Assembly: GCF_000264455.2 (NCBI RefSeq)
Contig: NC_017958.1
Span: forward strand, 997,001 to 1,061,000
DNA: 64,000 bases
Direction: 5' to 3'
From: Tistrella mobilis KA081020-065
Lineage (GTDB): Bacteria > Pseudomonadota > Alphaproteobacteria > Tistrellales > Tistrellaceae
Part shown: piece after piece, positions 15,788-28,692 of the stretch
Layout of the letters: the number at the start of each line of letters is the position of its first letter
Position numbering within the stretch: position 1 is the stretch's first letter
Notes under the pieces: generated by a model
What the model saw: only the letters and a program-made list of their open reading frames with translations
Told to the model about the DNA's origin: nothing
The model's database searches: none
Translations under genes and position numbers: made by a program

Positions 15788-16016
15788 CCTGTGCGGCCGC
15801 CTGCACGGCCTGTTTCCCGCCGCACAACGCGACGCTGATGTTGCGCTTCCGTGACGTCAGGTGACGATACGGCAACCTTCAGGAGCGCGCGCAGTCGCCG
15901 TGGAACAAGGCGCGCCTTTGCGGCCGGAACACTCACTCGCTTCTGCATCTGTTGCCGTGCCGACGCATGACCGGAGGCGTCCGCCACACATCAGGCTCCG
16001 GAACAGATAAACCGGA

Positions 16017-16045
16017 TTGACTGCCCTCCACCGCCCACGCAAATT
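16017..16045 (+). promoter_or_regulatory. Possible promoter for precursor peptide A
   Basis: TTGACT at 16017-16022, a 17-base spacer, then CAAATT at 16040-16045. The -35 is good and the -10 weak. A transcript starting near 16052 would give a 38-base leader with a strong ribosome site before the ATG at 16090. The rest of the 15788-16016 stretch shows no gene. Confidence 0.35.
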
Positions 16046-16089
16046 GATGCCGTGTGGTTTCAGTTTTCCCAAAATGGGGGGATCTTCGC

Positions 16090-16245
16090 ATGACGCAGTC
16101 CGTGTCGTCCGATCAGAATGCCGGCGGAGACGTCAAGACGGCAAAGGCCGCCTGGGTCCGTCCGACTCTCGATGCGATGGATCTGGTCACCACGACCAGG
16201 GTGGCCGGGGGCTTCGGCCCCGACAATGACCTGTCCCCCAGCTGA
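16090..16245 (+). CDS. Putative RiPP precursor peptide A
   Basis: 51 aa, starting at an ATG preceded by a GGGGGGA ribosome site. The N-terminal half is leader-like (Gln/Ser/Ala/Lys-rich). Residues 22-27 read W-V-R-P-T-L, close to the Y-x-x-P-x-L leader motif that lasso-type B1/PqqD proteins bind. A Thr-Thr-Thr run follows, then a Gly-rich, acidic C-terminus, A-G-G-F-G-P-D-N-D-L-S-P-S, ending in Ser. A second short peptide at 20254 has the same plan: Trp-x-x-Pro, Thr-rich spacer, Gly...Pro...Asp-Asp...Ser-Pro-Ser. It lies in front of a JmjC hydroxylase and within a cluster of PqqD-like, cyclase-like and kinase-like genes. If it is lasso-like, only a short tail would follow an Asp ring, so the product may differ. 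Confidence 0.72.
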   Translation: MTQSVSSDQNAGGDVKTAKAAWVRPTLDAMDLVTTTRVAGGFGPDNDLSPS

Positions 16246-16380
16246 AGCCGACGTCTTTCAGGCCGGCTCACGAAAACAGCCCTGAGGCGATGGTGTGAGC
16301 CGCGCCTCCACCCGATCGGATGATCCCGGCTGATCGGGATCTGCGCGGGCTCTGGCATCCGACCTGCGCACGGAGTGCCG

Positions 16381-17550
16381 ATGATACCGTCCCTGGATGC
16401 CCTTCTGGCTCCGCACGACCCGGCGCTGCTCCATGCGGCCATCCGGGAACGCCGCATGGCCTGGTTCCGGACCGGCCATGATGATCTGTTCCGCGCGCTT
16501 CTGCCCTGGTCGACCTTCAACAGCCTGCTGGGGTCGGAGCGGCTGCTGGACGACCGGACCCGGATGGTGCGGCGTGGCCGCGACCTGCCGCGGGAAATGT
16601 GGAGCTATCTCGGCCCCGACATGAAGCGGGTGGTCGTGCCCGAGCTGTTGCAGCGGTTCTGCCATGAGGGGCTGAGCATCGCCCTCAACCAGATCCAGCA
16701 TGCGGTTCCCGGCATCGCCGCCCTGGTCAAGATGCTGGAACAGGCGCTGCCGGCCCGCATCGGGACCAATGTCTATGCCAGCTTCGGCAGGGAAAGCGCG
16801 TTCCGCGCCCATCACGACCCCCATGACGTGCTGGTCCTGCATCTGCACGGCCGCAAGCGGTGGTTCGGGTTCGGGCATCAAAGCGCACACCCGCCCGGCA
16901 TGCCGCTCACCAACGACCGCCTCGGCCCCGTGCATTGGGAACAGGTGCTGGAGCCTGGCGACATTCTGTATCTCCCGCGCGGCGAGATCCACCGGGCGTC
17001 GGTCGAGGGGGAGGCATCCCTCCATCTGACCAACGCGCTGCTCTGGCCCCGGGGATCGGACCTGCTGCACTGGCTGGCCGGGACCGGGTTGGCCGGGAAT
17101 GGGTTGGCGGCCGACGATCTCGACCGGGACATCCCGGTCTACGGGACGGCCACCGATCTGGAACGCTGCGCAGAAGAGCTGCGCGCCACGCTGCACCGCC
17201 TGGCCGATAGCATCGATCTCACCGCCTTCCTGGCCGCCCACATACAGAAGCGACAGACCCGGCCGCCCTTCAATCTGGGCCTGTCGTCAGATTGCGCGCC
17301 GACCTGCTGGGTTCAGCCCCTGCCGGCACCGGATCTGCGCCTGCCGGCGGAGGGCGGTGCCACCATCCCGTTCAACGGCGAAGAGGTGACGCTGGATCCG
17401 GATGAGCGTGCCGTGCTGGCGGCATTGCTGGCCGGCGGCGCACGGCAGATCGCCAGCCTGCCCGGTCCGGCCGGGCTGGACATGGAGACGGTGCGTGACA
17501 CCGTCGCCCGCCTTGCCCGACGGTCTCTCGTCCTGCTGACGGAAGGCTGA
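16381..17550 (+). CDS. JmjC/cupin-type 2-oxoglutarate oxygenase
   Basis: 389 aa. The cupin core carries the iron-binding H-x-D in F-R-A-H-H-D-P-H-D-V (about residues 140-149) and the distal His in R-G-E-I-H-R-A near residue 203, with G-R-K-R-W-F between them, as in ribosomal-oxygenase (YcfD/NO66-like) cupins. The last ~70 residues resemble the winged-helix tail of that family. Such enzymes hydroxylate Arg, His, Asn or Asp side chains of polypeptides. The ATG at 16381 has GGAG five bases upstream. It follows precursor A by 135 bases on the same strand, so it probably modifies that peptide (inference). Confidence 0.85.
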   Translation: MIPSLDALLAPHDPALLHAAIRERRMAWFRTGHDDLFRALLPWSTFNSLLGSERLLDDRTRMVRRGRDLPREMWSYLGPDMKRVVVPELLQRFCHEGLSIALNQIQHAVPGIAALVKMLEQALPARIGTNVYASFGRESAFRAHHDPHDVLVLHLHGRKRWFGFGHQSAHPPGMPLTNDRLGPVHWEQVLEPGDILYLPRGEIHRASVEGEASLHLTNALLWPRGSDLLHWLAGTGLAGNGLAADDLDRDIPVYGTATDLERCAEELRATLHRLADSIDLTAFLAAHIQKRQTRPPFNLGLSSDCAPTCWVQPLPAPDLRLPAEGGATIPFNGEEVTLDPDERAVLAALLAGGARQIASLPGPAGLDMETVRDTVARLARRSLVLLTEG

Positions 17551-17552
17551 TC

Positions 17553-18527
17553 TCACGCCTGGCCGGCCTGCAGACGCAGATGCTCCAGGCGGTCATGATG
17601 CGCGTCCGCCAGATCACGGGCAAGCGCTGCCAGATCCGCGGTCACCGCCGCGCGTTTACGGGTGCCGTCGGGCTCGAACCTCTGCCGGCCCGTCGGATCC
17701 TTGGCATGGCGGCCGGCCGCATGGGCCAGACGATCGGCTTCCTCCGCGGTCGGTATCAGCCCCAGCCAGGGCAGGATCTGCGTCGTCAGGGCCTGGGGCA
17801 GCGCTTCATAGGGCACCAGCAGCCAGTCCCCTGCCCCCTGCCGCTCCACATCGCGCACCACCCCCGCCAGGATCCGCCCCAGCACCTGGGCGGCGAAGGC
17901 CAGGGGCGTGTCTGCAACCTGCGACGGCGTGCCCCCCAGAAAGAGCCCGGCCTGCATCCGATGCGCGGCCCGCCGCATCCATCCGGCCGGGCGGTCCCGC
18001 AGAGAGACCAGGATCTCGTCGGGCCGGCGGTAGACGAACAGCTTCGGCACGCCGGGAAAGGCCTGATCCAGCAAAGGCAGGTGCAGGGCGTTCCAGCTGG
18101 ACAGTTTCAGGATGAACCGGTCCTGATCCGGCCGGGCGATCCGGGCCAGGGCGGCAGCCACCCGCCGCAGGGCCTCCACCTTTGTCGCAGCCGGCAGGAA
18201 CGGCCAGACGCCATCGACGCTCAACACGTCGTTGAGCGCCTGGGGCTCCGAGACCACATGGCAGCGGGTGAGCAGCGACAGGCTGCGCGAAACCAGGGTG
18301 GAGCCGCAGCGGCCGGTATGCAGGATCAGCGCCGCGGGGGCCGGCGCATCACCCGTCAACGGCAGTTCAGCCCGCCAGCCCGGCCCTGCCCCTGCAATCC
18401 TGTCATCGAAGAAGGGCAAGCCCGGGTCCGTGCCGGCGATATCGGCCCAGTCGGCCGTGATCCGGCCGGCCTCGTGATGAAGCCTGGCCGGCACGGGTTG
18501 CGGCACGGCTGAGAGGACCGGCTCCAT
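17553..18527 (-). CDS. Sulfotransferase-family protein (RiPP locus, first copy)
   Basis: 324 aa. The PAPS-binding P-loop-like motif L-H-T-G-R-C-G-S-T-L lies at about residues 68-77, and F-V-Y-R-R-P-D-E-I-L-V-S at about 157-168 corresponds to the 3'-phosphate loop. It is a divergent sulfotransferase of the kind often found beside PqqD-like and aspartyl-hydroxylase genes. Three bases separate it from the upstream PqqD-like gene on the same strand, so the two are co-translated. Its substrate is presumably a modified peptide; Tyr is absent from both precursors, so sulfation would have to fall on Ser, Thr or a hydroxylated residue. Confidence 0.8.
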   Translation of the reverse strand: MEPVLSAVPQPVPARLHHEAGRITADWADIAGTDPGLPFFDDRIAGAGPGWRAELPLTGDAPAPAALILHTGRCGSTLVSRSLSLLTRCHVVSEPQALNDVLSVDGVWPFLPAATKVEALRRVAAALARIARPDQDRFILKLSSWNALHLPLLDQAFPGVPKLFVYRRPDEILVSLRDRPAGWMRRAAHRMQAGLFLGGTPSQVADTPLAFAAQVLGRILAGVVRDVERQGAGDWLLVPYEALPQALTTQILPWLGLIPTAEEADRLAHAAGRHAKDPTGRQRFEPDGTRKRAAVTADLAALARDLADAHHDRLEHLRLQAGQA

Positions 18528-18530
18528 CGG

Positions 18531-18809
18531 TCAGCCGTGGATGCGGATCAGCTTCTGATCTTCCATCTGCCCCAGCAGATCCAGAACGTCGCGCTCGATC
18601 TCGGCAGCGGATGCGTCATACCGCTCCCCCAGCGACCGGCAGAGATCGGTCACCTTCCGCGGCCGCTCCAGCTCCCGCCAGATCTCGGCGCTGATGCGGT
18701 TCAGGCTGAAATACCGCCCCTGTTCCATATCCATCATGATCAGTTCGCCATCGGTTTCGGTGGCAAGCAGATCGGGGTTGGCCGAAACGACGCTGGAAAG
18801 CTCGATCAT
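18531..18809 (-). CDS. PqqD-like leader-peptide-binding protein (RRE), copy 1
   Basis: 92 aa, a stand-alone PqqD fold. The diagnostic G-E-L-I-M-M-D-M-E-Q-G-R-Y-F-S-L-N strand pair and the following I-W-R-E-L helix are clear, with a C-terminal helix-rich part (V-L-D-L-L-G-Q-M). PqqD-family proteins bind RiPP leader peptides and deliver them to the modifying enzymes; lasso B1 proteins belong to the same family. It is encoded immediately upstream of a sulfotransferase and divergently from a 2OG oxygenase. Confidence 0.9.
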   Translation of the reverse strand: MIELSSVVSANPDLLATETDGELIMMDMEQGRYFSLNRISAEIWRELERPRKVTDLCRSLGERYDASAAEIERDVLDLLGQMEDQKLIRIHG

Positions 18810-18845
18810 GATCCGGTTACCCTGTTCGACATCCGGGGGAGAGGG

Positions 18846-18974
18846 ATGGTATCAGCATCCGGCGGATTCGTCGGCGGGTTTTCGGCAGATCGTCGGCAGG
18901 GGCGCGATGTGCAAAGACCCGTTCACCATCCTTCCCATGTCATCGCCCTTCCCACGCCGACGGACGCCTCATGA
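18846..18974 (+). CDS. Possible small ORF coupled to the 2OG oxygenase
   Basis: A 42-codon frame with a strong GGGGGAG just before its ATG. Its TGA overlaps the oxygenase's start codon (ATGA at 18971). The peptide begins M-V-S-A-S-G-G-F-V-G-G-F and ends T-P-T-D-A-S. It lacks the Trp-x-x-Pro leader motif of peptides A and B. It could be a coupling leader, a third and divergent substrate, or chance. Not recognised. Confidence 0.35.
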   Translation: MVSASGGFVGGFSADRRQGRDVQRPVHHPSHVIALPTPTDAS

Positions 18975-19600
18975 CACCCGCCGCCATCGACGCATTCTCG
19001 GCCGTCCCGCCACATCTCGTCATCCGCGATGCGTTCGGGGCAGACATGGCCGCCCGCCTGCTCGCCTTTGCCCTGGCGCAGGCGGAGCTGTTCTCCGAAA
19101 CCCAGGTGGGCAATCAGAAGGGCCGGGTTGCGAAGCAGATCCGCAGTTCACGGGTCATCGGAACCCTCGGTGCGCTCGAAGGCGATCTGGAGACGAAGTT
19201 CCGCGCCCTGCTGCCCCGGGCGACAGCCGCCTTGCATCTGGCGCCCTTCACTCTCGACAGTCTGTCGATGGAGCTTGCCGCCCATGGCGATGGCGACTTC
19301 TACCGGCGGCACATCGACACTTTCGTGCGGGGGGAGATGACCGGCACCGACCGGGTGCTGACCGCCGTCTACTATTTTCATGCCACGCCCAAACCTTTTA
19401 CGGGGGGAGAATTGCGGCTGCATTCCCTTCGCCCGCTCGACCAGGGCGGCAGTTACATCGACATCGAACCGGTGCATGACAGCCTGCTGCTGTTTCCGGC
19501 CTGGGCACCACACGAAGTGCGCCCGGTCTCCTGCCCGGGGGGCAGCTTCGCTCAGTCACGCTTTGCCATCAATTGCTGGTACAACAGCCGGGCGCACTGA
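18971..19600 (+). CDS. 2OG-Fe(II) oxygenase (prolyl-4-hydroxylase-like)
   Basis: 209 aa. The iron triad is visible: H-I-D in Y-R-R-H-I-D-T-F near residue 116, a distal His in A-P-H-E-V-R-P-V near 179, and the 2-oxoglutarate-binding Arg in S-R-F-A-I-N-C-W-Y. G-G-E-L-R-L precedes the distal His, as in the P4H/Tpa1-like group. It has no strong ribosome site of its own, fitting translational coupling to the small frame in front. With two PqqD-like genes as neighbours, a peptide hydroxylase role is likely; Pro and Asp in the precursors are the obvious candidates. Confidence 0.87.
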   Translation: MTPAAIDAFSAVPPHLVIRDAFGADMAARLLAFALAQAELFSETQVGNQKGRVAKQIRSSRVIGTLGALEGDLETKFRALLPRATAALHLAPFTLDSLSMELAAHGDGDFYRRHIDTFVRGEMTGTDRVLTAVYYFHATPKPFTGGELRLHSLRPLDQGGSYIDIEPVHDSLLLFPAWAPHEVRPVSCPGGSFAQSRFAINCWYNSRAH

Positions 19601-19615
19601 TACGGGTTGCGACCG

Positions 19616-19939
19616 TCAGCCCTCGCCCGCAGCCGTTACGATCAGCAGGCCTTCCCCCTCCAGCCGTGTCAGGAAATGCGCCGCCTCGGCCCGGATGGTC
19701 TCTTCCGGTGCATCGTAGATCGGCGCGAGTTCGGCCACGATCCGATCGAGGCTGCAGGGTGTCGCCAGAAGCTGCCAGATGCGGCCGGCCACCGGATTGA
19801 GATTGAAGTACCGGCCGAGTTCAACGCTCATCATGATGACCTGATCGCCGACCGATGCGCTCAACAGGCGGGTCTTCTGCCGATAGAGCCGATCCGTCGT
19901 CACGGCGGCGATAGTCACATCGTCCTGCATGGTCGTCAC
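19616..19939 (-). CDS. PqqD-like leader-peptide-binding protein (RRE), copy 2
   Basis: 107 aa from a GTG start, or 104 aa from an ATG at 19930. The PqqD pattern is again clear: Q-V-I-M-M-S-V-E-L-G-R-Y-F-N-L-N, then R-I-W-Q-L-L, then a helical end. It is clearly related to copy 1 but not a recent duplicate. The stop of an unusual upstream frame (19936-20271) overlaps its GTG start. Two different RRE proteins beside two precursors suggest each may serve one peptide or one enzyme set. Confidence 0.9.
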   Translation of the reverse strand: MTTMQDDVTIAAVTTDRLYRQKTRLLSASVGDQVIMMSVELGRYFNLNPVAGRIWQLLATPCSLDRIVAELAPIYDAPEETIRAEAAHFLTRLEGEGLLIVTAAGEG

Positions 19940-20271
19940 GCTCCCGGAGCCCGCACCTCGTTGATCACCACGGTTTCAGTGTAGCGCCGGACGGGTCTGG
20001 CTCGAAGCCTGATATTCAAAAGGCCAGGCATCTGAAAGCGCTGCAATGTGAAACGTATGCACGCCATATCATTGAATTGCCTGGCTTGTTTATACACACT
20101 TTCAAGCATCTCCCGGCATACGGCCGGATTCCTGTTCTGACGATCTATGACATCTGCTACACTGAAAATGTCAGATTTCGAGATAATGTAACGACATAGA
20201 CTCGCAAAGCTGCACTGCTCGCAGATCTCGATCTTTTCAAGCAGGACGATGACATGACTGATACCAGGCAT
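19936..20271 (-). CDS. Possible small gene of foreign composition, upstream of PqqD copy 2
   Basis: A 111-codon open frame in an AT-richer stretch, ending in a GTGA overlap with the next gene. It uses codons rare elsewhere in the window (ATA, AGG, AGA, AAA, CTA). The product has a Cys cluster, C-E-Q-C-S-F-A-S-L-C, near residue 17-26 and a basic C-terminal half. It overlaps the first 18 bases of precursor B on the other strand. No family is recognised and no transglutaminase-type Cys-His-Asp pattern of a lasso B2 peptidase is seen. It may be a real acquired gene or a chance frame. Confidence 0.35.
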   Translation of the reverse strand: MPGISHVIVLLEKIEICEQCSFASLCRYIISKSDIFSVADVIDRQNRNPAVCREMLESVYKQARQFNDMACIRFTLQRFQMPGLLNIRLRARPVRRYTETVVINEVRAPGA

Positions 20272-20418
20272 GATCTTACCCCGGACGTGGCACCGACAGC
20301 GCCCCGCCTGAAATGGCAGACACCCGATTTTGAGGTGCTGCAGACCGCCCAGACCAGCAACAACGGCCTCGTCGCCCCCGGCGATGACATCTTTTCGCCG
20401 TCTCCGACCGGAAGCTGA
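20254..20418 (+). CDS. Putative RiPP precursor peptide B
   Basis: 54 aa. The leader part ends in K-W-Q-T-P-D-F (residues 20-26), matching the W-x-x-P-x-[LF] of peptide A and the Y-x-x-P-x-L motif of lasso leaders. A Thr/Gln-rich spacer leads to a C-terminal G-L-V-A-P-G-D-D-I-F-S-P-S-P-T-G-S. If Gly38 is core residue 1, Asp44 or Asp45 (core 7 or 8) could close a seven- or eight-residue lasso ring with a nine- to ten-residue tail. The C-terminal residue is Ser, as in peptide A; lasso kinases of the HPr-kinase type phosphorylate a C-terminal Ser. It lies 11 bases before the cyclase-like gene. AGGA is present upstream of the ATG. Confidence 0.75.
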   Translation: MTDTRHDLTPDVAPTAPRLKWQTPDFEVLQTAQTSNNGLVAPGDDIFSPSPTGS

Positions 20419-20429
20419 TCCGGCCGTCG

Positions 20430-22361
20430 ATGTCGTTTTTTGCAGGGCTCGTCGGCACGGAACCCGTCCCGGCCGAGGGCAGCGACGGGCTTGACGGCAT
20501 TGCCGCAACCTATGGCGGGGGCGGCAGGGCATCGGTCTGGCGTGGCGATTCGGCGGCGATGGTGCATGTGCCGCGCCCCGTCACGCCCGAGGATCGTCTG
20601 GACCGCTTTCCCGCCGCGTTTGCCGGGGGCACCTCCAGGCTGGTCTTCGACGGCCGGCTGGACAATCGTGAGGACGTGATCCGGGCGCTGGCGCTGGATC
20701 CGGCCCGTGCCGTTCGCCTTGGCGATGGTGCGTTGGTGATGGCGGCGCTGGAGCGCTGGGGGATCGACGCCTGCCCCCGACTGATCGGTGCCTTCGCCTT
20801 CGCCTGGTGGAACGAGAGCCTGCGCCGCCTGGTGATGGCGGCAGATGCCAGCGGCGGCCGGACGATCTTTGCACACAGTGACGGCCGGCGGCTCCGCTTC
20901 GCCAGCCGGCCCCTGGCGGTTCTGGCCTTTCCAGGCATGGCCCGCCAGGTCGACGAAACCGCGATGGCGCATCTCCTGCTCGCACGTCCCATTCCGGCAG
21001 GGGCGACCCCCTTTCGCGGCGTGTTCCGCCTGCCGCCGGCCGGGCTGCTGGTCTGGAAGGACGGCCACCACAGCATCAGCCGCTACTGGCGCCCCGATCC
21101 CGGCCGCAGGATCGTATATCGGGATCCACGCGACTATGTCGAGGCAGCGCGCGAACTGCTCGACCAGGTCGTCGCGGCCAATCTGAGGGCGATCGACCCC
21201 GTCGCCTGCCAGCTGTCGGGGGGGCTGGATTCCAGCGCGGTGGCTGCGACGGCCGCCCGGTTGAGCAGCCCGCGGGTGCTGCACACGCTCACCGCGCAGC
21301 CGGATCCCAGCGCCCCGATGCCGGCCGAACGCCCCCGCGGCTTCTACGACGAGGGGCCCTTTGCCGCGGCTACCGCGGCGCTCTATCCGAACATCACCCC
21401 ACATTATCTTCCCGCCGGGGCAATCACGCCGGGGGAAGAGGATGCGACGGCCCTGTTCCGGCAGTTCGGCGTGCCGATGCGGAACTTCACCAATTTTGGC
21501 GCCTGGCAGCCCCTCTATGCCCGGGCGAAAGCGCTCGGCGCATCGGTGATCCTGACCGGGACGGCGGGCAATTGCACCCTGTCGTGGAAGAGCGAGGCCC
21601 TGCTCGCCGATCTCGCCGCCGCGGGACGGTTCGTGGAACTGGCGCGACAGCTTCACGGTCTGCGCCGCCATGGCCATCGTCCCTGGCCTCAGATCCGGCA
21701 GAATCTGTTGCGATATGTGGTTCCCGCCCGCGCTCGGAGGCAGATGCAGCGGCTGCGCGGCACCGGGGAAGCCTGGCGCAAGCGTGCACTGCTGACCGCC
21801 GATCTGGAGGCGCTGGTCGAGCCGGTCGCGGTCACCGACTCAGTGCTCATCAGTACCGACCGCGCCGACTATGATCGCCGGTCCCGCATCGCCTATCTCG
21901 ACAGATACTTCGCGAACTGCCAGTGGCTGGCGGGGCATCCCTACGTCACCGGTTGCGATCCGCGCGACCCCCTGGGCGATCGGCGGCTGGTCGAGTTCTG
22001 TCTGGCTCTTCCGGTGACGATCTGGCAGACGAATGGTAAACCTCGTTCCTTCGCCCGCGAGGTCCTGAAGGATCGTCTGCCGCCCCGGGTGGTGGACAAT
22101 CAGAAGCGCGGCTATCAGAACGGCGACTGGTTCCACCGGCTGACACAGCTCCGCCCTGCTTTCATGGCCGAACTCGACCGGCTGGAGGCATCGGCCAGCG
22201 TCCGGAGGATGGTGAACCTGCAGCGCATCCGCGCCGTGGCCGAAAACTGGCCGGCAGATGCCGATGCCGCCATGGCCCGCGACGCCGAGATGCTCGACCT
22301 TTTTGCCCGTGGCATCCATTACAGCCGCTTCATCCGCTGGGTCGAGGGATCCAACGCGTGA
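20430..22361 (+). CDS. Asparagine-synthetase-like protein, candidate lasso cyclase
   Basis: 643 aa. The N-terminal Ntn-glutaminase-like domain (about 1-200) has no Cys at position 2 (M-S-F-F-A-G-L-V-G), so glutamine hydrolysis is unlikely. The C-terminal synthetase domain keeps the ATP-pyrophosphatase motif C-Q-L-S-G-G-L-D-S-S near residues 258-267 and L-T-G-T-A-G-N near 374, followed by S-W-K. This matches lasso peptide C proteins, which adenylate an Asp/Glu side chain and close the isopeptide ring. It directly follows precursor B. Alternative: an amidotransferase for another peptide or glycan. Confidence 0.85.
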   Translation: MSFFAGLVGTEPVPAEGSDGLDGIAATYGGGGRASVWRGDSAAMVHVPRPVTPEDRLDRFPAAFAGGTSRLVFDGRLDNREDVIRALALDPARAVRLGDGALVMAALERWGIDACPRLIGAFAFAWWNESLRRLVMAADASGGRTIFAHSDGRRLRFASRPLAVLAFPGMARQVDETAMAHLLLARPIPAGATPFRGVFRLPPAGLLVWKDGHHSISRYWRPDPGRRIVYRDPRDYVEAARELLDQVVAANLRAIDPVACQLSGGLDSSAVAATAARLSSPRVLHTLTAQPDPSAPMPAERPRGFYDEGPFAAATAALYPNITPHYLPAGAITPGEEDATALFRQFGVPMRNFTNFGAWQPLYARAKALGASVILTGTAGNCTLSWKSEALLADLAAAGRFVELARQLHGLRRHGHRPWPQIRQNLLRYVVPARARRQMQRLRGTGEAWRKRALLTADLEALVEPVAVTDSVLISTDRADYDRRSRIAYLDRYFANCQWLAGHPYVTGCDPRDPLGDRRLVEFCLALPVTIWQTNGKPRSFAREVLKDRLPPRVVDNQKRGYQNGDWFHRLTQLRPAFMAELDRLEASASVRRMVNLQRIRAVAENWPADADAAMARDAEMLDLFARGIHYSRFIRWVEGSNA

Positions 22362-22383
22362 GCGACATGGCGGGCCGCCCGGC

Positions 22384-23238
22384 TTACAGATAGCCCAGCC
22401 GGTACATCACCTCGCCGTGATCGCGCTCGATCTGCTCGACCTGCGCCGGGTTCAGTGTGTCACGCCAGCCGCCCGCCATTCCCCGGCGGAAGAAACGCCG
22501 GCCGCCACCGGGCGTTTCCGGGAAGTTGCCGGCCTTCTCCTCGTCCCGCAGGCGGTCGAAACGCGTCGCCGCCACGGTCCCCGCGATCGCGGCTTCGCTG
22601 CTGGTCCAGCCAAGGGTGGCGCTCGTCTGCCGCAGAACCGCGGCGAAATCCGCAAGCATGTCCTCATAGCGGATCACCAGAGGGGCGAGCCCCGAGCGAT
22701 CGATCCAGCTCGTGACATGTCCGCTCCAGTCCGAATACGTCTGCGGCAGGTGATGATGCCCCGAGCGGATGCCAGCCGCCACGGCGTAGTCCGGATCTGC
22801 CATCAGAGCGATGGCCTCATCAACCTCCATGCCGAAATGATGGGCGAACGAGACCGCCACATCGCGCGGATCCCGCACCAGATAGATGGATGCAGCCGTC
22901 ACCTCTTCCGGAAACAGCGCCTCGCCATCCGACGTGCGCTGCCAACAGTCATGGATCTTCCAGATCGTCGTCTCCCGGGCCTGGGTGTCCATGAAGCCGT
23001 AGACCTTGGGCCGCAGCAGCAGCACTTCTTCTGCCGACAGATCAGAGGAGTCGATATCGAGCGCCATGTCGAAGCGATGGCGTGCGGCGAGCAGGATGCC
23101 GATATTATTGACCATGCTGCCGAGATCGATGGGCTTGCCGCCATTCTGCAGCGTAATCAGGGCGATCCGCATCCAGGTATTGCCCGATTTGGGATAGGAG
23201 GCCAGCCACACATTGTCCCGGACCCGGTTCGGTATCAT
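22384..23238 (-). CDS. Sulfotransferase (Sulfotransfer_1 type; RiPP locus, second copy)
   Basis: 284 aa classical PAPS-dependent sulfotransferase: Y-P-K-S-G-N-T-W-M-R near the N-terminus (5'-phosphosulfate loop), Y-L-V-R-D-P-R-D-V-A-V-S near residue 118 (3'-phosphate loop) and a late R-R-G-M-A-G-G-W-R-D resembling the R-K-G-x-x-G-D-W-K loop. GGAGG sits seven bases before the ATG at 23238; a GTG one codon earlier is the alternative. It overlaps the stop of the kinase-like gene, so the two are translationally coupled. It converges on the cyclase-like gene. Confidence 0.9.
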   Translation of the reverse strand: MIPNRVRDNVWLASYPKSGNTWMRIALITLQNGGKPIDLGSMVNNIGILLAARHRFDMALDIDSSDLSAEEVLLLRPKVYGFMDTQARETTIWKIHDCWQRTSDGEALFPEEVTAASIYLVRDPRDVAVSFAHHFGMEVDEAIALMADPDYAVAAGIRSGHHHLPQTYSDWSGHVTSWIDRSGLAPLVIRYEDMLADFAAVLRQTSATLGWTSSEAAIAGTVAATRFDRLRDEEKAGNFPETPGGGRRFFRRGMAGGWRDTLNPAQVEQIERDHGEVMYRLGYL

Positions 23239-24224
23239 CACGCAGCCTCCGTCAGCAGCCGGCCGATCTGCGGTCCGACCCGGGCTATGGTGCCGAGCCC
23301 GTCGGGCAGGGTCAGCGCGTGGTTCGGCAGGGTCGTGGCAAGGGTCGCACAGGCCTGAAACACCCGGTCGGAGAGGCCCAGAAGATCGGCGGCCGTGCGC
23401 CGGTAGATACAGTCATGCAGCACCCGAACCGCCGGCAGCCCGCTCTGCGGAACCAGCCTGGGCCCATCCGGCAATTGCCGGATCCGCGGATGCAAGCGGC
23501 AGATGGCGTCGAGACGTCTCGGCACCCCATCGAAACTCCGAAAGACCGGGCGGTCGAACTTCTCCAGAACCACAAGGCGACGCAACCGTCTTCCGGGAGC
23601 GATGCCGAGGGCGTCGAGCGTGTCGCGCCAGAGCTTCTGACGCGGGACACCGGGCAGAACCGCCGGCCCACCCGGGGCACACATATCGATCATGGTGACG
23701 TCGTCGGACAGAAGCTCAGCCCCCTCGGCCAGAAGCAGGGCCGCTACGGTCGACTTTCCCGTAGCCGACGGCCCCATGAGCGCGACGGTTCGACCGCCGA
23801 TCACCACCGTGCTCGCCTGCAGCGGAAACAGACCCCGTTGAAGCCCCAGGAACCCCAGCACCGGGCCCAGCAGAAAGACGGCAATATCGGGCGTGTCGTC
23901 GGCATGGGGGCTGTCGATGATCACCTCGCCGCCGCCACTCACCAGGAAATCCGCCACGTTCCTGACCGTATAGCGCAGCTGTCCGCGTTCATTCACCTGC
24001 ACCAGAGGGGTCTGCCGTACCCGTCCGGAAAGCTCTTGCGGCACCTCGCCCCGCCGGATATGGACATCCACCGGCCTGTCGTCTCCCGTCCATGGCAGAA
24101 GTTCGGGCAAGGGCCAGTCCGTCCGGACCCGCCAGCCGCACAGAGAGAGATCATCACAATCGGCTGTCAAGAATCGGCACCCGCAGGAGTAGGACTGACG
24201 GGGCAATCCCCCATGTGCCGCCAC
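23238..24224 (-). CDS. HPr-kinase-related protein, candidate peptide kinase
   Basis: 328 aa. The kinase core has Walker A G-P-S-A-T-G-K-S-T near residue 152 and L-L-S-D-D-V-T-M-I-D about 20 residues later, the Walker B-like Asp-Asp pair of HPr kinase/phosphorylase. The N-terminal part (about 25-130) resembles HprK-related kinases found with PqqD-like proteins rather than true HprK. In the paeninodin lasso cluster such a kinase phosphorylates the precursor's C-terminal Ser; both precursors here end in Ser. The start is a GTG only 15 bases after the siderophore-interacting protein's stop; the exact start is uncertain. Confidence 0.85.
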   Translation of the reverse strand: MAAHGGLPRQSYSCGCRFLTADCDDLSLCGWRVRTDWPLPELLPWTGDDRPVDVHIRRGEVPQELSGRVRQTPLVQVNERGQLRYTVRNVADFLVSGGGEVIIDSPHADDTPDIAVFLLGPVLGFLGLQRGLFPLQASTVVIGGRTVALMGPSATGKSTVAALLLAEGAELLSDDVTMIDMCAPGGPAVLPGVPRQKLWRDTLDALGIAPGRRLRRLVVLEKFDRPVFRSFDGVPRRLDAICRLHPRIRQLPDGPRLVPQSGLPAVRVLHDCIYRRTAADLLGLSDRVFQACATLATTLPNHALTLPDGLGTIARVGPQIGRLLTEAA

Positions 24225-24239
24225 AATAGCAAATCCGGG

Positions 24240-25343
24240 TCAGGCAGAAACCGACGCAATGCCCGCCGCGACGATATCCGCCTCGCTCATGCCCCGCCGC
24301 CAGTGGGAGAAGGCGATCATGCGGTCGGCGGAGATACCGACCTCCGTCTTCAGGAAGCCGCGCATCGCGCGGAACGCACTGTATTCGGCACCGATCCAGG
24401 CGAAGATGTCGCCGTGATCGGCCGGCACCGCCACCTGCCGCAGGGCATCGATCAGCAGGCTTGTTGTCCCCGGCGCCGCGGCACCGCGACGCAGCCAGCG
24501 GATCTGCACCCCCGGCGGGGCGGCGATCACCTGTTCCTCGGCAGCGTCGGCAACCTCGATCAGCGCCACGCCCCCCGCTTCCGCCGGCAGATCTTCCAGG
24601 ATACGGGCGATGCCGGGCAGGCCGGTCTCGTCACCGGCGAGCAGATACCAACCCGCCGGCTTCGGCCCGTTGGCGGCCGGCCCCAGAATGCCGACGACAT
24701 CGCCCGGCGCCGCATCCCGTGCCCAGGCGGCCCCGGGGCCGGCACCGTCATGGAGCACGAAATCAATGTCGAGCCGGCCGGCCGCGGCATCGATCCGGCG
24801 GATGGTGAAGATGCGCGAGGGCAGCACGTCGTTCCCCGGCCAGAGGATGCGGCCGTGATCATCGAGTTCGGGCCAGCGCGGGGTGGTGACGCCCTTCGCC
24901 TGGAACAGCAGCCGGCAATGGATCTGGTCGGGCACCGCATAGCGGCCCAGATCCTGGCCCGCAAAGGTGATCCGGCGCATGCGCGGCGTCAGCTGCGTAA
25001 CGCTGTGGACGGTGAGCACGCGCAGATCCTGTGGCAGGGCCGAGCCGACGGCATCGCCGGTCCAGCCGATCTGAAGATGCTCGGGCCGGGCGACGAAATC
25101 GATCAGCCCGGTCAGGTCGTGCTTGAGGCGGTTGAAGGCCGCCGGGTCGGATGCCTCGACCGCCAGCCGGAGCACACCCTGCCCCGGCATCAGCCGGGCC
25201 CGGCCGAAATCGGTCTCGACCAGATGACCGTCCCCCTCGGCACGGAGCGTCATATTATGGGCCGAGAGCGAGGCGATGATGGTGTCGAGATAGCGGTCGA
25301 GATTGGCAAAGGCGATCTCGGCCTCGGCCTTGAAGCGTGGCAT
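24240..25343 (-). CDS. Siderophore-interacting protein (ferric-siderophore reductase), DUF2218 fusion
   Basis: 367 aa. The first ~95 residues form a DUF2218-type domain. From about residue 105 a FAD-binding SIP domain follows: R-M-R-R-I-T-F-A-G, then P-S-R-I-F-T-I-R-R-I-D flavin-binding segment, G-P-A-A-N-G-P, L-L-A-G-D-E-T-G-L-P-A/G-I-A-R and C-terminal W-I-G-A-E. It should release iron from imported ferric siderophores by reduction in the cytoplasm. It lies between the binding protein (41 bases) and the kinase-like gene (15 bases), all on one strand. Confidence 0.92.
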   Translation of the reverse strand: MPRFKAEAEIAFANLDRYLDTIIASLSAHNMTLRAEGDGHLVETDFGRARLMPGQGVLRLAVEASDPAAFNRLKHDLTGLIDFVARPEHLQIGWTGDAVGSALPQDLRVLTVHSVTQLTPRMRRITFAGQDLGRYAVPDQIHCRLLFQAKGVTTPRWPELDDHGRILWPGNDVLPSRIFTIRRIDAAAGRLDIDFVLHDGAGPGAAWARDAAPGDVVGILGPAANGPKPAGWYLLAGDETGLPGIARILEDLPAEAGGVALIEVADAAEEQVIAAPPGVQIRWLRRGAAAPGTTSLLIDALRQVAVPADHGDIFAWIGAEYSAFRAMRGFLKTEVGISADRMIAFSHWRRGMSEADIVAAGIASVSA

Positions 25344-25384
25344 GGGGCTCGTCCTTCAGACTGTCTTGTTTTTTCGAGCGGGTC

Positions 25385-26521
25385 TCAGCCCGCAAGGCTC
25401 ACCCAGCAGGGGCCGGGCAGCGGTTCGGCAAGGAAGCGGCGGCCGATCTCGTCGAGCGTCGCCGCAGGGTCGAGATCGGCGAACAGCGCCGGATGCAGCC
25501 AGGTGGCGGCAATCTCGACGAACAGAATGTTGAGCGGGGTCACGCTCAGCAGCCCCGTCCACACCCCGTGCACCCGCCCGTCACGGACGGCCGGCAGCGT
25601 CTCGAAGCCGGTGCGCGCGACCAGCCGGGCAAGGCCGGCGCGTGCGGCCGCAGGGTCGAGCCCCGGGGCGATGCCCGGCCGGATGCCGGCGCCATAGGAA
25701 CCCCCCGAGGCGATATAGACCGCCGGCGCCTCGGTCATCAGCTGTTCGATCGGCAGTTTGACGTACCAGGACGCCTCGATCGCCGAGAGCGTGCTGCCAC
25801 CGGCAAGCCTGAGGAGATCGCCCCAGATCCGCTGCCCCGCCGCCCAGCAGCAATCGTCATAGGTCGACTGAACCTCCAGATAGGCGCGGGTCGGCGCCAC
25901 GCCGGCGAGCCGCCCGGTCACCCGCGCCAGGCGGTCGGCGACGAAATCCGTGAAGGTGCGGGCGCGGGCGGGCACACCCAGCACCTCGCCCCACATCCGC
26001 ATCGCCCGGCCCATGTCGCCGATCGGGTCGCCGGCCGCACCTGCCGGCGGTGCCGCATTGCTGGCGGCATTGCTGAACACCACCGGAATGCCGGCGGCGG
26101 CCAGCTGCCGGACCAGACGTCCCTCCCCCAGTTCCGGTTCCATATAGGCGCTGGCGACCACCAGATCGGGGGTGAGCGACAGGATATGCTCAACCGATAA
26201 TGTGTCGGGGGTCTGGCCGCCGACCTCGGCGATCAGGCTGCCATCGGGCCGCGTTTCATAACGCCGGCGCAGAAGGTCGCTGTCGAGCCTGGCCACATCC
26301 GCCCAGCCGACCACCAGCCGCGACGGATCGGGATGCAGCAGGGCCATGCTGATCACGTCGCGCGCATCCAGCAGCACGATGCGCGCCACCGGCCCCGCCA
26401 GTTCGACCGTCCGGCCGATCACGTCGGTGACGACCATCCCGCCGCCGGCGGCACGGGCGAGCGTCGGGGCTGCGGCAGCCGCCCCCAGCAGGGTCAGAAA
26501 ACTGCGGCGATCGAGATCCAT
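25385..26521 (-). CDS. Iron-siderophore ABC transporter substrate-binding protein
   Basis: 378 aa periplasmic FhuD/FecB-type binding protein. The N-terminus D-R-R-S-F-L-T-L-L-G is a twin-arginine (Tat) signal. The mature part begins with V-V-T-D-V-I-G-R-T-V-E-L, the usual start of this family, and later has the D-L-V-V-A-S segment. The start at 26521 is chosen because AGGAG lies ten bases upstream; a GTG six codons earlier overlaps the receptor's stop. No permease or ATPase follows, so the membrane part of the importer must be elsewhere. Confidence 0.9.
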   Translation of the reverse strand: MDLDRRSFLTLLGAAAAAPTLARAAGGGMVVTDVIGRTVELAGPVARIVLLDARDVISMALLHPDPSRLVVGWADVARLDSDLLRRRYETRPDGSLIAEVGGQTPDTLSVEHILSLTPDLVVASAYMEPELGEGRLVRQLAAAGIPVVFSNAASNAAPPAGAAGDPIGDMGRAMRMWGEVLGVPARARTFTDFVADRLARVTGRLAGVAPTRAYLEVQSTYDDCCWAAGQRIWGDLLRLAGGSTLSAIEASWYVKLPIEQLMTEAPAVYIASGGSYGAGIRPGIAPGLDPAAARAGLARLVARTGFETLPAVRDGRVHGVWTGLLSVTPLNILFVEIAATWLHPALFADLDPAATLDEIGRRFLAEPLPGPCWVSLAG

Positions 26522-26535
26522 CAGAGACTGGCTCC

Positions 26536-28692
26536 TCACCAGCTGTAGCGCAGCCCGGCCAGCACCTCGGTGCCGTTGCCGTACTGGCAGTAAAAGCCGC
26601 TGGTGCAGCTCGTGTAATAGGTCTTGTCGAACAGGTTGGTGGCATTCAGCGTCACCTGGGTGCCCTGCAGCGACGGCGACAGCCGGGCCAGATCATAGCG
26701 CAGCGCCACATCGACCAGGGCGAAGCCGTCGGCCTTGAAGCTGTTGGTGTCGTCGGCATAGCTGCTGCCGACCACACGCACGCCCGCCCCCAGGGTCAGA
26801 CCGTCGAGCGCGCCGGCATCGACGGCGTAATTGGCCCAGACCGACCCGTGATAGGCCGGCACCGCCTGCGGACGCTTGCCGATATTGGCCGCGACCGTCG
26901 ATTTCGTGACCTCGGTGTCGAGCAGGGTGAGGGCCGCAATCACCTCCAGATTGGTGGTGACATTGCCGCGGGCCTCGAACTCGACACCCCGCGAGCGGAC
27001 TTCACCCTGCTGGACATTGAAACCGGGCGTGCTGCCGGGGGTGAGAACGTTCTCCTGCCGGATCTGGAAGGCGGAGACGGTGAACAGCGCCGTCATGAAA
27101 TCCGGTTCGTATTTGACGCCCAGCTCCCACTGCTCGGCCTCGGTCGGATCGAAGGGCCGCCCCGACGCGCCGACGCCGATCACCGGCTCGAACGAGGTCG
27201 AATAGCTGACATAGGGCGCGATGCCGTTGTCGAAACGATAGAGCAGACCGGCACGATAGCTGGGCGACCGGCTCGACTGGTCGCTGGTGGTGCCGGCCAG
27301 GCGGTTCCGGCTCTCCTGCTCCGTCCAGTCGTAACGCGCGCCCAGCAGCAGCCGCCAACCGCCCAGGCTCATCTGGTCCTGCAGATAAACGCCCGTCTGC
27401 TCCAGGGTCTGGCGGGTATCGATCACCGCCGCGAGTGCCCCCACCGGCAGGCCATAGCGCGGATTGCCCAGATCCAGCGGCTCGGCCGCCCCCATCTCAT
27501 AGGTCCAGTCGCTCGCCGCATGCTGATAGTCGACGCCGATGATCGCCTGATGCCCCACGGCACCCGTGGCGAAATCGACCTGCGCCCGGTTGTCGGTGGC
27601 GACACCTTCAACCGTTTCTGTCGAGCGCAGAGCCATGCGCGGCAAAAACCCGTCTGCCGTGATCCCGCCCGCCATCTGCAGGCTCTGGAAATCCAGGTCG
27701 ATTTCGGAATAGCGGGTCTTCGAGCTGACGCTCACCATGTCATTGATCCGGTGGTCGAAGCTGTAGCCGATGGCGCGCTGGGTGCGGTCATAGCTGTCGA
27801 AAGCCGGATCGCCGACATTGTCCTCGCGGCCGAGCCCCCCCTTCCAGGCATCCGGCGCCAGCTCCTGCGGATAGGTGGAGTTGAAATAGCCGCCCTTCGG
27901 ATCGGCCTGATAAAAGCCCTGAAGGGTAAGCTGCGTGTCCGCATCCGGCTGCCAGCGCAGCTGGGGCGCGATCGACAGCCGTTCCTCCTCGACATCGTCA
28001 TAGCGGGTGTCGGCCCGCCGGCCCATGGCGGCGATGCCGTATTGCCACTGCCCCTCGGCATCGATCCGGCCCTGGCTGGCGATGCCGCCCTGCAACCGGC
28101 CATGGCTGCCGCCCTCGATCCGGGCCTCGCCCGATGCCGTGGCAGAGGGGCTGCGGCTCAGCTGATTGACCAGCCCGCCCGGGCTGGTCTGGCCATAGAG
28201 CACCGCCGACGGCCCTTTGAGCACATCGATCCGGTCAAGCAGGAAAGGATCGACCGAGGGCAGCGCGAAGGCCTGACCGCGGGGCAGGCGCAACCCGTCG
28301 AGGAAGTCGACGATCCGCGTCGAGGTGCCGAAGCCGCCGAAGCCGCGCAGGAACAGGCTGTCGTAACGGCCGGTGGCATCGGGTGTGGAGAGCACGCCGG
28401 CGGTATAGGTCAGCGCATCCTTGACCGTGCGCGCATTCTGATCGTCCAGCTGACCACGGGTGACGGTGCTGACCGATTGCGGGGTCTCCAGCACCGGCGT
28501 CCCGGTCTTGGTCGCACTGGTTGCGACCGGCGCCAGATAAGTATCGCCCGTGGTCACCGCCGATGCCTCGCCCTCGACCTGAAGCGAGGGCAGCGTGGTC
28601 GCCGTCTCGTCGGCCACCGCCCCCATCGGCGCCAGCACGGCCGCTGCGGCGATCACTCCGGCGCTACCCCGTCTTGAGAACACCCCCGTCAT
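26536..28692 (-). CDS. TonB-dependent siderophore receptor
   Basis: 718 aa outer-membrane receptor with a signal peptide (cleavage near A-V-A-D, residue 28), a plug domain (P-Q-S-V-S-T-V-T near residue 70; R-I-D-V-L-K-G-P-S-A-V-L-Y-G-Q near 150) and a beta barrel ending in the aromatic G-L-R-Y-S-W. It is of the ferric-hydroxamate/FhuA-FpvA group by plug sequence, without an obvious N-terminal signalling domain. It is the first gene of the minus-strand operon, divergent from a TetR gene, with a Fur-like inverted repeat upstream. Confidence 0.94.
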   Translation of the reverse strand: MTGVFSRRGSAGVIAAAAVLAPMGAVADETATTLPSLQVEGEASAVTTGDTYLAPVATSATKTGTPVLETPQSVSTVTRGQLDDQNARTVKDALTYTAGVLSTPDATGRYDSLFLRGFGGFGTSTRIVDFLDGLRLPRGQAFALPSVDPFLLDRIDVLKGPSAVLYGQTSPGGLVNQLSRSPSATASGEARIEGGSHGRLQGGIASQGRIDAEGQWQYGIAAMGRRADTRYDDVEEERLSIAPQLRWQPDADTQLTLQGFYQADPKGGYFNSTYPQELAPDAWKGGLGREDNVGDPAFDSYDRTQRAIGYSFDHRINDMVSVSSKTRYSEIDLDFQSLQMAGGITADGFLPRMALRSTETVEGVATDNRAQVDFATGAVGHQAIIGVDYQHAASDWTYEMGAAEPLDLGNPRYGLPVGALAAVIDTRQTLEQTGVYLQDQMSLGGWRLLLGARYDWTEQESRNRLAGTTSDQSSRSPSYRAGLLYRFDNGIAPYVSYSTSFEPVIGVGASGRPFDPTEAEQWELGVKYEPDFMTALFTVSAFQIRQENVLTPGSTPGFNVQQGEVRSRGVEFEARGNVTTNLEVIAALTLLDTEVTKSTVAANIGKRPQAVPAYHGSVWANYAVDAGALDGLTLGAGVRVVGSSYADDTNSFKADGFALVDVALRYDLARLSPSLQGTQVTLNATNLFDKTYYTSCTSGFYCQYGNGTEVLAGLRYSW

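Follow-up and report, generated by a model that had tools for sequence, protein, structure and literature searches.

Two lasso-peptide-type gene sets share one accessory island and probably a single cyclase in Tistrella mobilis

We analyzed a 64,000-nucleotide stretch of the Tistrella mobilis KA081020-065 genome (NC_017958.1, positions 997,001 to 1,061,000; hereafter the window, in which coordinates are counted from its first letter). The genome totals 6.5 Mb in five contigs, of which C4 contains the window; the GC content of the window is about 69%. It contains an 8.35-kb accessory island encoding a ribosomally synthesized and post-translationally modified peptide (RiPP) locus with two precursor peptides, two PqqD-type RiPP recognition elements (RREs), one AsnB-like cyclase, two oxygenases, two sulfotransferases, and one HprK-like protein. 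Its genes and their homologs mark the locus as a cluster of the lasso-peptide type, akin to the phosphorylated (paeninodin-like) branch. The genes form two sets, A and B, of separate ancestry, each of which occurs elsewhere with its own precursor. The simplest history that these comparisons suggest is a merger of two lasso clusters, in which set A lost its cyclase and its kinase beside set B or on joining it, and we consider this explanation as a whole probable. What is new here is the discrete island, the probable merger of two clusters, the absence of a local leader peptidase (B2), and the replacement of the catalytic histidine of the kinase by glutamine.

The island and its genes

The window was aligned with the corresponding loci of one genome of the same species (G033, locus L151) and one of the same genus (G162, locus L152). 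Both match it at 92-95% up to position 15888 and again from 24240, so that the entire cluster forms one accessory block, the boundaries of which are independent of annotation. At the island site, both relatives carry one 700-aa chemoreceptor-like gene (L151 3905-6007, L152 3946-6048). All ten island genes are open, and the inventory proposed for this DNA in an earlier note (two precursors, two PqqD/B1 proteins, a lasso-type cyclase, two oxygenases, two sulfotransferases, and an HprK-like protein) was recovered gene by gene. That note had divided them into five units; we count six, namely peptide A-JmjC (rightward), ST1-PqqD1 (leftward), the 2-oxoglutarate (2OG) oxygenase (rightward), PqqD2 (leftward), peptide B-cyclase (rightward), and ST2-HprK (leftward). 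The features are as follows.

15889..24239, no strand: accessory island, from alignment with L151 and L152
16090..16245, + strand: precursor peptide A, 51 aa; ATG start; homologs lie beside JmjC genes
16375-17550 (likelier start ATG 16381), + strand: JmjC_2/cupin oxygenase (Fe(II)/2OG type), set A; PF08007, 68 bits
17553..18527, - strand: putative sulfotransferase 1 (ST1), set A; RxGSTL motif and sulfotransferase fold
18531..18809, - strand: PqqD1, predicted leader-binding RRE (B1), set A; PF05402, 70.5 bits
18971..19600, + strand: 2OG-Fe(II) oxygenase, set B; PF13640 (2OG-FeII_Oxy_3), 69.5 bits; HID...HEVR
19616..19939, - strand: PqqD2, predicted leader-binding RRE (B1), set B; PF05402, 64.7 bits
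20254..20418, + strand: precursor peptide B, 54 aa; three other loci encode homologs
20430..22361, + strand: AsnB-like lasso-type macrolactam cyclase (C protein); best NCBIfam model NF033535
22384..23241, - strand: putative sulfotransferase 2 (ST2), set B; PF00685 (Sulfotransfer_1), 82 bits; PKSGNTW
23238..24224, - strand: HprK-like kinase, set B; AlphaFold2 (AF2) model of predicted local distance difference test (pLDDT) score 90, matching HprK/P and PEPCK

A lasso-type cyclase and its related loci

The cyclase starts with MSFF, without the glutaminase cysteine (Cys2), keeps the SGGLDS ATP motif, and matches PF00733 at 91.5 bits, as expected of the AsnB-type C protein announced in the earlier note. 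We assigned it to the lasso type because the lasso cyclase model is its best match in NCBIfam and because Cys2 is absent. Both PqqD1 and PqqD2 score above the PF05402 cut-off of 23.4, and TIGR04353 (HPr-rel-A PqqD) had no match in the genome.

Related cyclases were searched in one genome per species plus a 385-genome class sample using a 6-sequence profile, a 12-sequence profile being too divergent for the contig scan. This yielded dozens of related loci, mostly alphaproteobacterial, in which a short W..P peptide adjoins the cyclase. Co-occurrence was counted in the 55 cyclase loci flanked by 5 kb or more on each side. Of these, 43 have PqqD, 42 HprK, 28 ST2 (Sulfotransfer_1-type), 25 B2, 9 ST1, and 4 the 2OG oxygenase, with ST2 and HprK occurring together in 28. 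L042 (7919-8600) has three different W..P precursors in tandem upstream of one cyclase. On one contig of a marine metagenome-assembled genome (MAG; L031/L079), a stretch of about 20 kb contains three cyclases of the lasso type, two B2 genes, and three HprK-ST2 pairs. At L038 (17098-17427), translated repeats (VPRTCGDEP) look like a clustered regularly interspaced short palindromic repeats (CRISPR) array.

Two conserved precursor peptides

In peptide A, the leader (...KAAWVRPTLDAMDLVTTTR) bears the W22..P25 motif and T36 at position -2, and D45 is core position 8. W22, P25, T36 (-2), and D45 are invariant in the family (Azospirillum sp. TSH100, L196, L197, L198, and the Tistrella peptide C family, described below). 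Because the family keeps Trp, Pro, Thr(-2), and Asp8, the core is predicted to be VAGGFGPDNDLSPS (nt 16201-16242), with a V1-D8 ring. A core starting at Arg, with an Arg1-Asp9 ring, was dropped, since the peptide A and C families align with Thr at -2 and Asp at 8.

Peptide B has W21..P24 in its leader, T34 at -2, and a predicted core NNGLVAPGDDIFSPSPTGS (nt 20359-20415). The four loci concerned (island, L031, L032, L080) yield the cores NNGLVAPGDDIFSPSPTGS, NNGLTPPGDDIFSPSPTGS, NNGLVAPGDGTFSPSPTGS, and NNGLVAPGDGTFSPSPSGS. Their pattern NNGL..PGD..FSPSP.GS is nearly invariant and the leader is variable, with an abrupt onset of conservation at the first Asn; Asp9, unlike Asp10, is present in all four. 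The predicted ring is therefore Asn1-Asp9. Amino acid replacements in this family are fewer than silent codon changes.

Both island peptides thus combine Thr(-2) with a [Y/W]xxP leader, features retained by most homologs; given the predicted cleavage sites, each has an Asp at core position 8 (peptide A) or 9 (peptide B), within the 7-9 range of ring residues, and both end in Ser. Among W..P peptides at most 1 kb from related cyclases, 50 out of 63 end in Ser, against 15 out of 201 similar open reading frames (ORFs) farther off (Fisher p = 3e-28). Thr(-2) together with Asp/Glu at core 8 or 9 was found in 30 of 50 peptides, compared to a mean of 4.9 and a maximum of 16 after shuffling. Since the Ser ending is so enriched beside related cyclases, the short peptides appear to be real genes, and on this comparative evidence those of the island are more than chance ORFs. 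The RiPP nature of the locus is upheld, and the search for short Trp-x-x-Pro peptides in related genomes, suggested in the earlier note, found them kept beside the enzymes.

These data also bear on the proposal that the short ORFs are fortuitous and that the AsnB-like and HprK-like genes act in a polysaccharide or exosortase system. The XrtA/PEP-CTERM amidotransferase model does match the cyclase weakly (84 bits, cut-off 817), Bacillota relatives sit in capsule loci (PMC13381572), and the TSH100 cluster lies near wbaP and FkbM genes. However, the peptides are conserved along with the enzymes, none of the ten island genes has a glycosyltransferase match in Pfam, and lasso B2 genes adjoin the enzymes of the relatives. 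We rejected this proposal on the conservation of the precursors and regard it as very improbable.

Two gene sets of separate ancestry

Set B comprises the 2OG oxygenase, PqqD2, peptide B, the cyclase, ST2, and HprK. It recurs in three other genomes, at the uncharacterized loci L032, L080 (Sphingomonas sp. Root720), and L031/L079 (the marine MAG), with cyclases 66-67% identical to that of the island. Full-length homologs of the 2OG oxygenase (51-63% identical) are linked to a peptide-B-type core in L031 and L032, and also in L080. PqqD2 clusters with the PqqDs of L031, L032, and L080 (support 98/89, also 100/97). Unlike the island, these loci have no JmjC, ST1, PqqD1, or peptide A, and L031 has a B2 gene.

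Set A comprises peptide A, JmjC, ST1, and PqqD1. PqqD1 falls outside the set B PqqD clade, in a poorly resolved part of the tree, and is 65-74% identical to set A PqqDs and about 31-36% identical to those of set B. The 385-genome class sample contained no close relative of JmjC, ST1, or PqqD1. Homologs of all three, at 64-67%, were found on plasmid p1 of Azospirillum sp. TSH100 (NZ_CP039640.1), in an uncharacterized cluster with a 54-aa peptide A homolog (E 2e-8), its own HprK, and a cyclase 32% identical to that of the island; a B2, another 2OG oxygenase, and an ABC transporter lie within about 8 kb. A further search of 82 genomes of the apparent family of TSH100 (Azospirillaceae) added three set A loci of identical gene order (L196, L197, L198), two of them in G456 and the third in G450; B2 is also nearby in L198. 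All four relatives show the peptide and JmjC, then, convergently, cyclase, HprK, ST1, and PqqD, the shared genes being 55-74% identical overall (JmjC 55-70%, beside the same peptide, ST1, and PqqD genes; ST1 59-69%). In the island, by contrast, the cyclase and HprK are missing between JmjC and ST1, the stop codons of which are 2 bases apart.

Since each of the two sets has a separate ancestry and occurs elsewhere alongside a precursor of its own, the locus probably makes two differently tailored products rather than the one product bearing all modifications that had been envisaged for it. For a single hydroxylated, sulfated, and phosphorylated macrocycle, all enzymes would have to act on both peptides. 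This would fit the presence of all genes in one 8.35-kb island and the ability of lasso RREs of other phyla to bind non-cognate leaders (PMC13381572), but it fits poorly with the two ancestries, with the separate RREs, oxygenases, and sulfotransferases, and with a kinase devoid of its His, and we judge it improbable.

The missing cyclase raises another alternative, in which set B alone works and set A is a relic without a macrocycle, or makes a linear hydroxylated, sulfated peptide resembling the linear phosphopeptides known from Bacillota. In each of the four set A relatives, the cluster includes a cyclase and an HprK, and linear polyphosphorylated peptides with lasso-like RREs exist (PMC13381572). 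On the other side, all four set A genes of the island are intact, and their catalytic motifs and Thr(-2)/Asp8 are in place. In addition, peptide C, which has a W.RP leader, Thr(-2), Asp8, and a Ser at its C-terminus, lies directly 5' of a JmjC_2 gene (L153 6926-8261, G000:C1 ~1273925-1275260) whose product is 36-38% identical to the island JmjC; all three Tistrella genomes retain this pair, and none of them has a cyclase, PqqD, or sulfotransferase gene near it, which makes a cyclase acting in trans plausible. A decaying set A is a serious rival to a shared cyclase, although we find it the less likely of the two. Under the merged-cluster explanation, peptide A would be served by the set B cyclase.

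Tailoring enzymes

JmjC_2 oxygenases are best known as ribosomal-protein hydroxylases. The H-x-D and the second His of the island JmjC are intact, and both are invariant among its homologs. JmjC_2 genes were also seen beside lasso peptides in Sphingomonas caeni (L105) and in L119. The other JmjC_2 genes of the class (L062-L078) had no convincing W..P peptide alongside; pairing with a peptide is therefore not general for ribosomal oxygenases. A JmjC/RRE fusion carries an RRE-like domain at the JmjC C-terminus (PMC12710340); the C-terminal domain of the island JmjC, compared to the PqqD profile by hhalign with a domain profile from four similar sequences only, gave a probability of 12%.

ST1 has no Pfam match. 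Its RxGSTL motif is conserved, and its AF2 model (pLDDT 83) resembles 3'-phosphoadenosine 5'-phosphosulfate (PAPS) sulfotransferases, including tyrosylprotein sulfotransferases: 28 of the 29 matches in the PDB at E <= 0.001 are sulfotransferases, and the other is a retinol dehydratase, itself of the sulfotransferase family. The ST1 homolog of TSH100 (L183 7059-8096, WP_199228728.1) is annotated as an aspartyl/asparaginyl beta-hydroxylase, while its sequence and fold say sulfotransferase. Since neither predicted core contains Tyr, the sulfate acceptor is likely to be a Ser/Thr or an oxygenase-made hydroxyl.

The HprK-like gene and ST2 overlap by 4 bases, as HprK-ST2 pairs commonly do. The HprK-like protein had been described in the earlier note as a kinase of the type that phosphorylates lasso precursors, and the fold and the Lys/Asp/Asp residues agree with this. 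The His-Lys-Asp-Asp residues are needed in lasso kinases (PMC9266682), but the island protein has Gln136-Lys157-Asp174-Asp175; the catalytic His is kept in 65 of 67 HprK homologs, Gln occurs only in the island protein, and the P-loop is altered as well (GPSATGKS). Phosphorylation is thus doubtful, no better than an even bet, because of Gln136 in place of the catalytic His and the changed P-loop. We give equal weight to the converse, namely that the protein is not an active peptide kinase here and has lost its activity or changed role, for example as a structural partner of ST2, with which it shares the common 4-base overlap. Besides the retained fold, a point in favor of activity is the Ser that still closes both predicted cores, the residue known to be phosphorylated by paeninodin-type kinases (PMC9266682).

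A single, unlinked leader peptidase

Neither the Pfam model PF13471 nor a family profile detected a B2 gene in the island. The sole B2 of the genome lies on another replicon (G000:C3:654693-655145; L051 9688-10212), away from any other lasso gene, and retains its Cys and His. In the same genome we counted seven lasso-like cyclases, about nine HprK-like genes, and, apart from one in a pyrroloquinoline quinone (PQQ)-like locus, nine PqqD genes. The six further cyclases, and several PqqD/HprK/peptide groups (L037, L040, L176-L182, G000:C4:923264), are unusually many. Both close relatives (G033, G162) have the same single, unlinked B2; in G040, which has two contigs, the only B2 (L054 8977-9393, G040:C2) is on another contig than the lasso cyclase, and about half of the related cyclase loci also have no local B2. 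We infer that the C3 B2 processes peptides A and B.

Proposed pathway

In the pathway that we propose, each PqqD would bind the Trp-x-x-Pro leader of one precursor, PqqD1 that of peptide A and PqqD2 that of peptide B, and the RRE would first present the linear precursor to the tailoring enzymes. Peptide A would be modified by the JmjC oxygenase and ST1, and peptide B by the 2OG oxygenase and ST2, together with the HprK-like protein. Sulfate would be placed on a side-chain hydroxyl, either native or oxygenase-made. The B2 cysteine protease from the other replicon would then cut one residue past the conserved Thr, leaving Thr at -2, and the single island cyclase would link the freed N-terminus of peptide A to Asp8 and that of peptide B to Asp9. 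Two differently decorated, possibly threaded lasso-type macrolactams would result, and hydroxylated, sulfated lasso peptides are thus predicted from the island. The neutral monoisotopic masses calculated for peptide B are 1825.848 for the macrolactam, 1841.843 with +O, 1905.805 with +SO3, and 1905.815 with +HPO3, a sulfate-phosphate difference of 0.0095 Da; those for peptide A are 1313.589, 1329.584 with +O, and 1393.546 with +SO3. The full proposition, that two RRE-leader pairs, each with an oxygenase and a sulfotransferase, feed one cyclase, that one unlinked B2 serves seven cyclases, and that the products are the first hydroxylated, sulfated lasso peptides, is tentative, and we rate it somewhat short of even.

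Several points weigh against this pathway. Asn and Val at core position 1 are unusual among known lasso peptides. The cyclase scores 231 bits with NF033535, under the cut-off of 525, and the two PqqDs score 61 and 59 bits with the NCBIfam model lasso_PqqD_Bac, under its cut-off of 80. The island has no exporter gene and, as described above, no B2, and its kinase departs from the His-Lys-Asp-Asp motif. Sulfotransferase function is assigned from fold and context, set A may be decaying without the cyclase and kinase of its relatives, and we found no report of a sulfated lasso peptide in the open-access literature.

Comparison with known systems

Among the closest known systems are those of the paeninodin type (PadeK, ThcoK, and SyanK of Sphingobium), which share with the island the WxxP leader motif, a discrete PqqD RRE, an AsnB-like cyclase, an HprK-like kinase, and a C-terminal Ser (PMC9266682, PMC13381572). 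The island differs in its two precursor-RRE sets, two oxygenases, two sulfotransferases, lack of a local B2, and kinase without His; moreover, its group is alphaproteobacterial whereas paeninodins are described as restricted to Bacillota. The linear polyphosphorylated peptides of Bacillota likewise have a PqqD-type RRE, an HprK-like kinase, and a [Y/W]xxP-type leader (PMC13381572), but no cyclase and an SpI-type leader peptidase. Canucin A is a lasso peptide tailored by the Fe/2OG oxygenase CanE, which acts on the linear precursor (PMC8498205); unlike the island, its Streptomyces cluster has one oxygenase and no reported JmjC_2 or sulfotransferase.

The gene set had been called unfamiliar in the earlier note. 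This holds in part: kinase and sulfotransferase genes had both been recorded in lasso clusters (PMC4289311, PMC8498205), so that their combination is not new in itself, while the open-access literature yielded no report of a lasso pathway with a JmjC_2 or of an unlinked B2 that several clusters share. The presence of sulfotransferase genes in lasso clusters has been on record since 2014, with no known product, and the present locus supplies two precursors with predicted core boundaries and masses. JmjC_2 oxygenases were found here repeatedly beside lasso precursors. Two RREs with one cyclase in one island offer a natural test of substrate separation in RiPP pathways, and if one protease serves seven unlinked clusters, cluster-based mining would miss or truncate many lasso pathways.

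Flanking genes

Genes on both sides of the island were named by inspection. The left flank, outside the island and common to the relatives, has acetoin-dehydrogenase-like genes and a short-chain dehydrogenase/reductase (SDR) gene. On the right, genes for a siderophore-interacting protein, an iron-binding protein, and a TonB receptor (window 24240-28692) adjoin the island and are also present in the relatives without it.

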